Shown here: piece by piece, positions 57,431 through 64,000 of the stretch | Numbering within the stretch: position 1 is the stretch's first letter | Layout of the letters: every line of letters begins with the position of its first letter | Notes under the pieces: generated by a model | The model's input: the letters and a program-made list of their open reading frames with translations, nothing else | The model's database searches: none | What the model was told of the DNA's origin: nothing | Made by a program: the position numbers and the translations under genes | DNA from: Bradyrhizobium manausense | GTDB lineage: Bacteria > Pseudomonadota > Alphaproteobacteria > Rhizobiales > Xanthobacteraceae | Length of the DNA stretch: 64,000 nucleotides | Assembly (NCBI RefSeq): GCF_018131105.1 | Contig: NZ_JAFCJI010000001.1 | Coordinates: 620,001 to 684,000 of the forward strand | Direction of reading: 5' to 3'

Positions 57431-58708
57431 TTACGCCATGCTCAGTTCGTGGCGGCCGACCACCATCCAGTGCACCTCGTCCGGGCCATCCGCAAAGCGC
57501 AGGTGGCGCACGTCCTGGTACATCTCCGCGAGCGGGGTCCAGTGCGAGATGCCGGTGGCGCCGTGCATCTGGATCGACTGGTCAATGATCTTGCAGGCGC
57601 GTTCAGGCACCATGGCCTTGACCATGGAGACCCAGACGCGGGCTTCCTTGTTGCCGAGCACGTCCATGGCCTTGGCGGCCTTCAGCACCATCAGCCGCAT
57701 CGCCTCGATCTCGCAGCGGGCCTGCGCGATGATCTGCATGTTGCCGCCGAGATGCGCGATCTTCTTGCCGAAGGCTTCGCGGGTAAGGCCACGCTGCACC
57801 ATCAGATCGAGCGCCTTCTCGGCCTTGCCGATGGTGCGCATGCAGTGATGGATGCGGCCGGGTCCGAGGCGAAGCTGCGAGATCTCGAAGCCGCGGCCCT
57901 CGCCGAGCAGCATGTTCTCCTTCGGCACGCGCACATTGTTGAAGCGCATGTGCATATGGCCGCGCGGGGCGTGGTCCTGGCCGAACACATACATGGGGCC
58001 GAGCACCTCGACGCCGGGCGTGTCGCGCGGCACCAGGATCTGCGACTGCTGCTTGCTCGGCGCCGCATCCGGACTGGTCTTCACCATCACGATGAGGATC
58101 TTGCAGCGAGGGTCGCCGACGCCGGAGATGTAGTATTTCTCGCCGTTGATGACCCATTCGTCACCGACGAGCTTCGCCGTGGTCGAGATGTTCTTGGCAT
58201 CGGAGGAGGCGACATTCGGCTCGGTCATGACATAGGCCGAGCGGATCTCGCCGTTCATCAGCGGCTTCAGCCACTTCTCTTTCTGCTCCTTGGTGCCGAC
58301 GCGCTCCAGCACCTCCATGTTGCCGGTGTCGGGCGCCGAGCAGTTCATGGTCTCGGACGCCAGCGGGCTCTTGCCGAGCTCGGAGGCGATGTAGGCGTAG
58401 TCGAGATTCTTCAGGCCTTGGCCGGTCTCGTCATCGGGCAGGAAGAAGTTCCAGAGGCCTTCCTTCTTGGCCTTGTTCTTGGCGACCTCGAGCACCTCGA
58501 GCTGCTTCGGGGTGAAGCTCCAGCGATCCTGCTTGCCTTCGCCGGCCTTCGCGAACTCGATCGACATCGGCTCGACCGTCTCGCGGATGAACTTCCTGAC
58601 GTGATCGTAGAGCGGCCGGACCTGGTCCGACATGCGCAGGTCATTGAGCTCATCGCCGGGATTGAGCGTGTAGTTGGTGGTGCGGGGAATGTAGGTGTGC
58701 TTTGTCAT
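57431..58708 (-). CDS. ACAD10/11-like acyl-CoA dehydrogenase
   Basis: This is a 425-residue FAD enzyme. YVMTEPNVASSDAKNI (near residue 158) and WVINGEKYYISG (near 182) bind flavin and substrate. The segments LGPGRIHHCMRTIGKAEKAL (near 285) and LRFADGPDEVHW (near 405) closely match mammalian ACAD10/11 and bacterial LvaC. In them Asp stands where ordinary acyl-CoA dehydrogenases have the catalytic Glu. That group acts on 4-hydroxyacyl-CoA through a phosphorylated intermediate together with an APH-type kinase. A kinase of that kind is encoded 2.6 kb away. The start has a strong GGGAGGAACA site. Confidence 0.87.
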   Translation of the reverse strand: MTKHTYIPRTTNYTLNPGDELNDLRMSDQVRPLYDHVRKFIRETVEPMSIEFAKAGEGKQDRWSFTPKQLEVLEVAKNKAKKEGLWNFFLPDDETGQGLKNLDYAYIASELGKSPLASETMNCSAPDTGNMEVLERVGTKEQKEKWLKPLMNGEIRSAYVMTEPNVASSDAKNISTTAKLVGDEWVINGEKYYISGVGDPRCKILIVMVKTSPDAAPSKQQSQILVPRDTPGVEVLGPMYVFGQDHAPRGHMHMRFNNVRVPKENMLLGEGRGFEISQLRLGPGRIHHCMRTIGKAEKALDLMVQRGLTREAFGKKIAHLGGNMQIIAQARCEIEAMRLMVLKAAKAMDVLGNKEARVWVSMVKAMVPERACKIIDQSIQMHGATGISHWTPLAEMYQDVRHLRFADGPDEVHWMVVGRHELSMA

Positions 58709-59021
58709 TGTTCCTCCCGGGGTCACTGAGATCGTGTTGGCCGAGAGAATAGTCGCAGCGCGGCCAAAGCGCGAGCGCGTATTTTCTCACGCAAGCCATG
58801 CCATGCGATGGAATTTCGCGGCGGCGTTTGAAATGTTGTTTGAATGGGGGGAGGCGCGATCTCTCGCGGATGTCGTCCCGGACAAGCGAAGCGCAGATCC
58901 GGGACCCATACCCACAGGGAAGAGTTTGGCGAGGACTCGGAGTTGCGAGTTTGCGCGACAACCGCTCCCTGTGGTTATGGGTCCCGGCGTTCGCCGGGAC
59001 GACGCCGAGTATGTAGCCCGC
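58709..59021. other. 313-base gap with family II long palindrome, copy 2
   Basis: This gap precedes the acyl-CoA dehydrogenase gene. It should hold that gene's promoter near 58710-58870, but no clear -35/-10 pair was seen. The part 58872-59003 is a 132-bp palindrome beginning GTCGTCCCGGACAAGCGAAG and ending GCGTTCGCCGGGACGAC. It is the same element as at 31559-31691 but in the opposite orientation. Confidence 0.85.
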
Positions 59022-59402
59022 TCAGTTCGGCATCCGATGCATCGCGCAGATCTTGTTGCCGTCGAGGTCGCGCAAGTAAGCGATATAGAGCTTGTTGCCC
59101 GCGCCCTCGCGGATGCCGGGCGGATTTTCGATCGGCTTTCCGCCGGCGGCGACGCCGGCCGCGTGCCACTTGTCGACCTGCTCGGGCGAGTTGGCGGCAA
59201 AGCCGATGGTGCCGCCGTTCGCACAGGTCGCCGGCTCGCCGTTGATCGGCTTGGAGACGGAGAACACGCCGGTCTTGGTGATGTAGAAGATGCGATGGCC
59301 GTCGACGCGCGCGGGCCGCACTTCGAGCGTGCTCAGGAGGCTGTCGTAGAACGTCTTGGCCTTGTCGAGATCGTTGGTGCCAACCATGATGTGCGAAAAC
59401 AT
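59022..59402 (-). CDS. VOC superfamily (glyoxalase-like) protein
   Basis: This is a 126-residue protein with two beta-alpha-beta-beta-beta units. It starts MFSHIMVGTNDLDKAKTFYDSLL, typical of VOC proteins, with a likely metal His at residue 4 and the ending YLRDLDGNKICAMHRMP. The fold covers glyoxalases, dioxygenases and resistance proteins. Nothing here specifies the reaction. It stands between two palindromic repeats in the acyl-CoA block and may be its own transcription unit. Confidence 0.83.
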   Translation of the reverse strand: MFSHIMVGTNDLDKAKTFYDSLLSTLEVRPARVDGHRIFYITKTGVFSVSKPINGEPATCANGGTIGFAANSPEQVDKWHAAGVAAGGKPIENPPGIREGAGNKLYIAYLRDLDGNKICAMHRMPN

Positions 59403-59426
59403 CTGTCTATCCCCTCATTATGATTT

Positions 59427-59508
59427 GTAGCCCGGATGGAGCGTCGCGAAATCCGGGTCTTGCTTGGTTTTGGTGGTCCCGGATTGCGCTTCGCTCCATC
59501 CGGGCTAC
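59427..59508 (+). repeat. Dispersed palindrome, family IV
   Basis: GTAGCCCGGATGGAGCG at the left and CGCTCCATCCGGGCTAC at the right, with inner AATCCGGG and CCCGGATT, form an 82-bp palindrome. It lies between the SDR stop and the VOC start region. Confidence 0.88.
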
Positions 59509-59513
59509 GAGAC

Positions 59514-62689: not shown

Positions 62690-62698
62690 GCCTCTCCC

Positions 62699-62784
62699 CG
62701 TCATTGTGAGGAGCGAAGCGACGAAGCAATCCAGACTGTCTCCGCGGCGAGACTCTGGATTGCTTCGCTACGCTCGCAATGACC
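62699..62784 (+). repeat. Dispersed palindromic repeat, family I, copy 6
   Basis: This 86-bp copy lies between the convergent DUF6285 and enoyl-CoA hydratase genes. The left end reads CGTCATTGTGAGGAGC (one change from the usual arm) and the right CGCTCGCAATGACCG. The core is TCTCCGCGGCGAG. Confidence 0.88.
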
Positions 62785-62797
62785 GACGAGTGACCTC

Positions 62798-63577
62798 CTA
62801 CTTCCCCACCCATTTCGGCGGCCGCTTCTCCGAGAACGCCTTCGGGCCCTCGATATAGTCCTGTGAGGCCACCATGGCCTTCACCGCGGGATATTCGCGC
62901 TGCTCCTCGATTGCCTGCTCCAGCGACACGGCAAGGCCCTTCCGGATGGTCTGCTTCGAGGCCCGGATCGACATCGGCGAATTCTTGGTGATCATCTCCG
63001 CCCAGCGCAGCGCTCCCGTCAGCGCCTCGCCCTGTGGCACCACCTCGTTGACGAAGCCGAGTTCTTGGCCCTCCTTCGCACTGACATGGCGCGCAGTGAG
63101 GATCATGCCCATGGCGCGCTTCAGACCGATCTGCCGCGGCAGGCGGTGCAGACCGCCGGCGAGCGCGGCTAGGCCGACGCGCGGCTCGGGCAGGGCGAAG
63201 GTCGCATTCTCGGAGGCGATGATGAGATCGCAGGCCAGCGCGATCTCGAAACCGCCGCCCATGGCGACGCCGTTGACCGCGGCGATGATCGGCTTGTCGC
63301 AGTCGAATCGCGCAGTGAGGCCGGCAAACCCGCCCTTGTCCCAGCCGCGCTTGCCGCCGGCGGCCTGCCATTTCAGGTCGTTGCCGGCGCAGAACGCCTT
63401 GTCACCGGCGCCGGTGACGACCGCCACCCACTGCTCGGGATCGGCAGCGAAATCGTCAAACACCTTGTTGAGCTCGAAATGCGCATCGATATGCAGCGCG
63501 TTGTAGACCTCGGGGCGCGACAGCGTGATGATCGTGATCGGCCCCTTGCGTTCCACCTTTGAGAATTTCAGCTCCAT
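62798..63577 (-). CDS. Enoyl-CoA hydratase
   Basis: This is a 259-residue crotonase with both catalytic glutamates: GGGFEIALACD (near residue 112) and ALPEPRVGLAA (near 131). The oxyanion hole is AFCAGND and NGVAMGGG. It should hydrate 2-enoyl-CoA to 3-hydroxyacyl-CoA, which would follow the dehydrogenase step of the Lva-like route. The ATG at 63577 has GGGAG at suitable distance. An in-frame ATG 14 codons earlier is possible. It is divergent from the acyl-CoA dehydrogenase at the right edge. Confidence 0.9.
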   Translation of the reverse strand: MELKFSKVERKGPITIITLSRPEVYNALHIDAHFELNKVFDDFAADPEQWVAVVTGAGDKAFCAGNDLKWQAAGGKRGWDKGGFAGLTARFDCDKPIIAAVNGVAMGGGFEIALACDLIIASENATFALPEPRVGLAALAGGLHRLPRQIGLKRAMGMILTARHVSAKEGQELGFVNEVVPQGEALTGALRWAEMITKNSPMSIRASKQTIRKGLAVSLEQAIEEQREYPAVKAMVASQDYIEGPKAFSEKRPPKWVGK

Positions 63578-63787
63578 CGCGCGCTCCCGCATTTTCTCGT
63601 CAAGGAATATTGGCGTCATACTACCGCGCGGCAGCGCACGAGCACCATCGAATTGCGCAACGCGCCTTGCGCGCCCGGCACGTCTCGCCTTGCTTGACTT
63701 GGAGGCGCTCTTCTCACCTTAATCGTGTGAAGCAAAACGCGTCTAGCGCCTTAACGCAAAACGATAAAATCAATCCGGGAGAGAACC

Positions 63788-64000
63788 GTGGATTTCTCAT
63801 TGCCTGCCGATCTCGTCGCCTATCTCGGAGAGCTTGACCGTTTCATCGAACGCGAGATCAAGCCCCTGGAACAGGCCGACGACAACATCCGCTTCTTCGA
63901 TCATCGCCGCGAATGGGCGCGCACGGATTTCGAGAATGGCGGCCTGCCGCGGCATGAATGGGAGCAACTGCTGCGCAAGGCCAAGGATCTCGCCGATGCC
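63788..64000 (+). CDS. Acyl-CoA dehydrogenase N-terminus, cut by the window
   Basis: The frame starts at GTG 63788, with GGGAGAGA just upstream, and runs open to the right edge, giving 71 residues. The text (VDFSLPADLVAYLGELDRFIEREIKPLEQ and then REWARTDFENGGLPRHEWEQLL) matches the N-terminal helices of acyl-CoA dehydrogenases of the kind found beside APH-type kinases. The catalytic parts are outside. Together with the ACAD10/11-like gene at 57431 it would give two dehydrogenases in this block. The 210-base gap before it has a TTGACT at 63694, but no matching -10 at the right distance. Confidence 0.75.
   Translation, partial: MDFSLPADLVAYLGELDRFIEREIKPLEQADDNIRFFDHRREWARTDFENGGLPRHEWEQLLRKAKDLADA

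Follow-up and report, generated by a model that had tools for sequence, protein, structure and literature searches.

Gene content of the locus

We analysed a window of 64,000 nucleotides from Bradyrhizobium manausense (contig NZ_JAFCJI010000001.1, positions 620,001 to 684,000; contig C1 in what follows), with attention to its last part (57431-64000), where an aminoglycoside phosphotransferase (APH)-fold kinase, KIN, and a small DUF6285 protein lie between two acyl-CoA dehydrogenases, ACAD_L and ACAD2. A preliminary description of this DNA had taken the region for a split ACAD10/11 module with the parts of the levulinate system LvaABCD of Pseudomonas. Because a kinase pair of the Lva type here adjoins a dehydrogenase of the animal type, in trees as well as in residues, the locus is not a split ACAD10/11, and it is not an lva operon either. 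The genes named in that description are all present: an ACAD10/11-like dehydrogenase, a short-chain dehydrogenase/reductase (SDR), a kinase with DUF6285 two bases behind it, a crotonase without both Glu residues and a canonical hydratase.

The minus strand carries ACAD_L (57431-58708; 425 amino acids from the ATG at 58708), followed by a VOC/glyoxalase-family protein that is kept across the genus (59022-59402; PF00903, 30.7 bits) and a classical SDR (59514-60293; PF13561, 198 bits), possibly a 4-oxo/4-hydroxy or 3-hydroxyacyl-CoA oxidoreductase. An intergenic region of 244 bp by its coordinates (60294-60537), a putative shared promoter region, separates the SDR from the divergent plus-strand series CrotA-KIN-DUF6285. 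CrotA (60538-61326) is a PaaG-like crotonase and predicted enoyl-CoA isomerase (NCBIfam PRK05981, 483.6 bits, cut-off 351), whose stop overlaps the start of KIN in an ATGA at 61323. KIN (61323-62309; PF01636, 131 bits) carries LAHLGDPMEDLGW, and two bases separate its stop from the start of DUF6285 (62312-62689; PF19802, 111 bits, cut-off 28.1), the sole PF19802 match in the whole genome. CrotB, a predicted canonical enoyl-CoA hydratase (62798-63574, with an upstream start at 63619 possible; PF00378, 211 bits), lies on the minus strand, so that the ATGA tie to the kinase that had been ascribed to the crotonases holds for CrotA and not for CrotB. ACAD2, of 424 amino acids, begins on the plus strand at 63788 and runs past the end of the window at 64000 (C1:683788-685062, or L002:7788-9062).

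By motif reading, both hydratase Glu residues are replaced in CrotA, which has an Asp in LVPDCG, and both are retained in CrotB, in FEIALACDL and FALPEPRVG. The Asp in VPDCG stands at a position that we take to be catalytic in PaaG-like isomerases. Beyond ACAD2 lie a ligase above the cut-off of a model for long-chain-fatty-acid--CoA ligases, a further SDR, then a second acyl-CoA synthetase and one more crotonase. The genes between ACAD_L and the second ligase, both included, are conserved in the same order in all seven other same-genus genomes (L053, L054, L056, L058, L060-L062) of a sample of 299 Pseudomonadota genomes (the phylum sample), and this conservation of the gene set is far beyond chance. 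The SDR is also conserved in G235, whose fetched stretch holds no ACAD_L.

KIN and DUF6285 are an LvaA/LvaB-type pair

Judged by their sequences, KIN and DUF6285 are a pair of the LvaA/LvaB type. The LvaB of the lva operon, a protein of 12 kDa, interacts with LvaA, and growth on levulinate requires the two of them, according to PMC6692424. When lva genes were labelled by blastp against the Stutzerimonas plasmid operon, the LvaB proteins of four Pseudomonas or Stutzerimonas loci proved to be PF19802 proteins (L094, 85 bits; L097, 79; P. putida W15Oct28 L102, 62; Stutzerimonas L088, 77; cut-off as above). The typical order in Pseudomonas-type operons, LvaR divergent from LvaA-DUF6285-(His phosphatase)-LvaC-LvaD-LvaE-DUF485, agrees with the lva operon as given in PMC6692424.

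Adjacency points the same way. All 31 DUF6285 loci fetched from the phylum sample have the gene either less than 200 bp behind a kinase (25) or fused to it (6). A scan of genome contigs with the kinase alignment, from which the best 80 loci were taken, gave DUF6285 less than 200 bp behind the kinase in 74, at 251 bp in one and fused in three, with none in two (L120, which ends inside the kinase, and L153). DUF6285 also adjoins the kinase in 11 of 12 plasmid loci, and lies 5.6 kb off on the opposite strand in the remaining one, L021. A control set of 12 loci with ACAD10/11-type kinases (L083, L173-L179, L182-L185; 11 placed in the tree, L175 by tblastn at 48.7%) gave no DUF6285 in the fetched stretches, which span 1.5 to 4 kb on each side, L083 excepted. 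Outside these controls, L063 and L018 hold an ACAD10/11-type kinase 2-2.5 kb from a DUF6285 that directly follows another kinase, of the window type.

Kinase trees were built from chosen rows rather than from all loci, a quick tree of 77 and a careful tree of 75 in which the long branches 3ats and L181 were left out. The careful tree resolves four groups: LvaA (36 rows, 99/97), the window type (21 rows, 98/98), the ACAD10/11 type (16 rows, 100/100), which includes the ACAD11 kinase fragment and a second kinase of this genome on contig C14, and a Thermus pair. KIN falls in a sister clade to LvaA, outside the LvaA clade proper, and a 100/100 branch separates both from the ACAD10/11 kinases. The assignment of kinase and small protein to the LvaA/LvaB type, as first described, is therefore borne out by PF19802 in lva loci, by adjacency and by the kinase tree.

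The window DUF6285 was modelled by AlphaFold2 as an all-helical protein (mean predicted local distance difference test score, pLDDT, 89.8; predicted template modelling score, pTM, 0.66), and the model had no significant PDB match. A natural kinase-DUF6285 fusion gave a pLDDT of 94.5 and a pTM of 0.93 over 446 residues, a confidence that speaks for a small domain fixed in one place on the kinase. DUF6285 likely acts as a kinase subunit in a fixed position, like LvaB on LvaA. The structures nearest to the kinase part of the fusion are 3dxp and 25-hydroxy steroid kinase.

Some neighbours of such pairs recur elsewhere. Outside the family, a DUF3089-like gene accompanies the pair in L066 (2649-4105), where it overlaps DUF6285 by 4 bp and is confirmed by Pfam, and in L055, L059 and L070, where it was read by eye; it could encode a lactone or ester hydrolase that feeds the pathway. 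L098, L100, L102, L104 and L108, five loci from Pseudomonas that include a histidine phosphatase gene, all have DUF6285 between kinase and phosphatase. The P. citronellolis operon is reported in PMC6692424 with otherwise the same arrangement and no lvaB, which may have been overlooked there. Histidine phosphatase genes recur near LvaA-type and ACAD10/11-type kinases alike (L087, L088, L090, L149, L169, L178, L179), and their products perhaps clear stalled phosphoacyl-CoA.

ACAD_L is a dehydrogenase of the ACAD10/11 type

By its residues and its place in the tree, we class ACAD_L as a true ACAD10/11-type dehydrogenase. It matches the ACAD11 chain 8v3u at 389 bits (49% identity over 392 amino acids), carries LGPGRIHHCMRT and FADGPDE, and in the alignment retains all four R/H/R/D signature residues, namely the upstream Arg, the HCMR motif and the catalytic Asp, which PMC12440821 links to the phosphorylated substrate. 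The careful dehydrogenase tree (51 rows, made up of chosen loci and matches aligned over at least 330 residues, with six outgroup rows removed) joins ACAD_L to ACAD11 in a clade of 13 rows (100/98), with LvaC (16 rows, 100/97), ACAD2 (8 rows) and a third R/H/R/D clade (12 rows) standing separately, and places all R/H/R/D enzymes on one side of a 96/91 branch. At the same four positions ACAD2 has F/Q/S/E, and R/H/R/D is found in all 41 ACAD10/11, LvaC and third-clade enzymes of the tree.

ACAD_L was also tried as an LvaC. It is 31% identical to Stutzerimonas LvaC, and a forced grouping of the two was rejected (approximately unbiased test, p 3.3e-6). The SDR is 33% identical to Stutzerimonas LvaD over 260 amino acids, and a Variovorax SDR from a different cluster is at least as close to it (33%, 110 against 99 bits). 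The first description was right about the dehydrogenase as an ACAD10/11-type enzyme, given its signature, its match to 8v3u and its clade; its single module equal to LvaABCD is not supported, with ACAD_L no LvaC, an SDR of 33% identity to LvaD, and ACAD2 the constant partner (see below). Of the tree positions proposed as a check, the kinase is near LvaA, as a sister clade, and away from ACAD10/11, and the dehydrogenase is with ACAD10/11 and away from LvaC.

A proposed route for hydroxyacyl-CoA

The general function of the cluster is likely to be a phosphorylation-dependent removal of a hydroxyl group from hydroxyacyl-CoA, with the 4-position and the substrate suggested by likeness to known systems; a 4-hydroxyacyl-CoA route is our best guess. 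With slightly better than even confidence, we propose that KIN, together with DUF6285, phosphorylates a hydroxyacyl-CoA at its 4-hydroxyl and that ACAD_L expels the phosphate, giving an enoyl-CoA for beta-oxidation. A hydroxy fatty acid would be activated by one of the neighbouring ligases and shortened or oxidised by ACAD2 and ordinary enzymes. ACAD2 would carry out a conventional dehydrogenation, which might help to cut longer hydroxy fatty acids back to the 4-hydroxy stage or take the product further. The 4-hydroxyacyl-CoA would then be phosphorylated by KIN with DUF6285, the phosphate expelled by ACAD_L through the ACAD10/11 mechanism, and the enoyl-CoA isomerised and hydrated by CrotA and CrotB, the predicted isomerase and hydratase. 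Candidate long-chain sources, by our suggestion, are 10- or 12-hydroxystearate, from which a few rounds of shortening would lead to the 4-hydroxy stage. Levulinate is less likely as the substrate, since the search of C1:620001-704000 gave no relative of LvaR, LvaF or LvaG. The cluster would likely let the cell burn fatty acids with a blocking hydroxyl, using partner enzymes unlike those of Pseudomonas.

The association of either dehydrogenase with the pair was followed in the phylum sample and in a family sample of 109 genomes, with ACAD2 counted at E <= 1e-120 and ACAD_L orthologues at 71% identity or more (the next match has 59%). In the phylum sample DUF6285 occurs in 32 genomes, ACAD2 in 25 and ACAD_L orthologues in 18. 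ACAD2 and DUF6285 coincide in 24 of the 25 by Pfam; the 25th genome, G247, has beside ACAD2 a kinase-DUF6285 fusion that Pfam missed, the tenth such fusion frame, so that the association is 25/25. The family sample gave DUF6285 in 26 genomes (25 over the cut-off) and ACAD2 in 21, all with DUF6285; of the 16 family genomes outside the genus with DUF6285 and ACAD2, 15 have the two at most 1.4 kb apart, and G353 has them on different contigs. ACAD_L occurs with DUF6285 in 15 of the 17 family genomes that have it, and in 16 of its 18 in the phylum sample against 16 of the other 281 (Fisher counts 16/2/16/265, or 8/2/16/265 without the own genus), counts that ignore shared ancestry and whose p-values are not to be taken literally. 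The pattern seems nested, ACAD2 being bound to the pair and ACAD_L an add-on seldom found without it. All 24 phylum-sample genomes with Pfam-detected DUF6285 and ACAD2 hold some dehydrogenase of the ACAD10/11 type, as do 111 of the 299 genomes taken together. Two plasmid clusters of the window type also include an R/H/R/D dehydrogenase, which adjoins the kinase cluster in Nonomuraea L021 and lies about 7 kb off in Sulfitobacter L019.

Several of our findings, besides the neglect of ancestry in these counts, weigh against a role for ACAD_L or for the lva-like route. The constant partner of KIN-DUF6285 is ACAD2 rather than ACAD_L. Eight of the 24 genomes just mentioned lack an ACAD_L orthologue, and four genomes have ACAD_L without DUF6285 (G257 and G169 in the phylum sample, G335 and G360 in the family sample). 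No HCMR dehydrogenase was found in the fetched stretches of the 16 non-genus window-type kinase loci of the phylum set, nor beside the window-type kinases of plasmid loci L018 and L022; in contrast, an HCMR dehydrogenase lies less than 5.5 kb away in 68 of the best 80 LvaA-type contig loci. KIN is 34.9% identical to Stutzerimonas LvaA over 307 amino acids, and C1:620001-704000, searched at E <= 1e-5, gave nothing related to LvaR, LvaF, LvaG or the histidine phosphatase. The kinase of L181 (G257) falls on the LvaA side of the quick tree in a genome without DUF6285, and so is, like L153, an exception to kinase-DUF6285 pairing. Finally, ACAD_L could serve the C14 kinase.

Alternative partners for the kinase

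The alternative that survives best, though we hold it unlikely, is that KIN-DUF6285 works with ACAD2 alone on a hydroxyacyl-CoA whose hydroxyl is not at position 4. ACAD2 would then expel the phosphate through different residues, those of the conserved helix FVH[QE]NRIRQ with Glu as the base, and ACAD_L would be a bystander. This alternative draws on the finding of ACAD2 solely with KIN-DUF6285, on invariant polar residues on the active-site helix across 15 aligned ACAD2 sequences, and on the kinase tree, where the 17 placed of the 25 ACAD2 genomes all fall in the window clade and the six placed of the eight DUF6285 genomes without ACAD2 all fall with LvaA. It has to reckon with the F/Q/S/E of ACAD2 where all 41 R/H/R/D enzymes agree, and a bystander role would not account for how rarely ACAD_L occurs without the pair (2/18 and 2/17). 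In a wider form, to which we give a similarly low probability, the locus would be a second, as yet undescribed kinase-DUF6285 system in Alphaproteobacteria, in which LvaC is replaced by a dedicated ACAD2 without the known phosphate-handling residues and hydroxyl groups are removed, by way of phosphorylation, from a new class of acyl-CoA.

It is improbable, to a greater degree, that ACAD_L serves the ACAD10/11-type kinase on C14 or acts alone, its place beside the pair being a coincidence of beta-oxidation gene clustering. The genome does hold, at C14:5299-7436 (within C14:5017-7436 of L083), a canonical kinase of the ACAD10/11 type next to a dehydrogenase of that type, with no DUF6285 found in the 14-kb stretch, and this is the true split ACAD10/11 pair; KIN, outside the ACAD10/11 kinase clade (100/100), cannot be given the part of the split kinase that it was first given. 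That the C14 kinase is a proper ACAD10/11-type kinase, that this genome (G000) has four ACAD10/11-type dehydrogenases, and that ACAD_L shows no linkage to the pair in the ten non-genus family genomes having both (seven have them on different contigs, three on the same contig at distances of 0.37-2.8 Mb) all speak for it. The C14 kinase, however, has its own adjoining dehydrogenase (C14:6234-7436, 56% identical), and ACAD_L follows DUF6285 across genera (16/18 and 15/17): it is less than 10 kb from the pair in the own genus only (8/8 genomes, phylum sample), and outside it about 16 kb away in G140 and about 30 kb in G168. Two further ACAD10/11-type dehydrogenases, at C1:1293450 and C1:727567 (L084, L085), have neither kinase type in their 20-kb stretches.

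That the kinase acts on a non-acyl-CoA alcohol, such as a sterol or terpenoid hydroxyl whose later elimination it would ease in the manner of 25-hydroxy steroid kinase, seems very improbable. The 25-hydroxy steroid kinase of sterol degraders has the APH fold of KIN and, like the role predicted for KIN, primes a hydroxyl for loss (PMC8449060); it is distant in sequence and acts on a steroid.

Relation to known systems

With the lva operon of Pseudomonas the locus shares the wider kinase clade, DUF6285 (LvaB) directly behind the kinase, and the proximity of an SDR and of a dehydrogenase with R/H/R/D. It differs in its separate sister clade of KIN, in the replacement of LvaC by an ACAD10/11-type dehydrogenase and ACAD2, in added crotonases, in an SDR with 33% identity to LvaD and in the want of LvaR, LvaF and LvaG relatives in C1:620001-704000. 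From animal ACAD10 and ACAD11 it shares the dehydrogenase (49% to ACAD11 in 8v3u) with its HCMR motif, catalytic Asp and upstream Arg, and differs in a kinase outside their clade, unfused to the dehydrogenase and with a DUF6285 partner.

That DUF6285 is LvaB may be plain to a specialist and derivable from public domain models; what is new is a kinase clade of its own that is tied to ACAD2, along with the kinase-DUF6285 fusions. In the literature searched there was no mention of DUF6285. The lva operon literature showed, by title, no such cluster in Alphaproteobacteria (PMC8714952 concerns an inducible expression system in Methylorubrum), and lvaA and Bradyrhizobium were not found together among the literature matches listed. 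On our reading of PMC6692424, the exact role of LvaB is unsettled. LvaB gains here a family and a rule: it lies directly behind LvaA-type kinases and was not found behind ACAD10/11-type kinases in the loci fetched. Since ten natural kinase-DUF6285 fusion frames exist, one of them modelled at high confidence, its role can be tested in a single polypeptide. A second branch of the pathway, with a dehydrogenase of its own, is indicated.

Elsewhere in the window, open reading frames at 5792-9608 resemble, by eye, a phenylacetyl-CoA epoxidase operon (paaABCDE-like).

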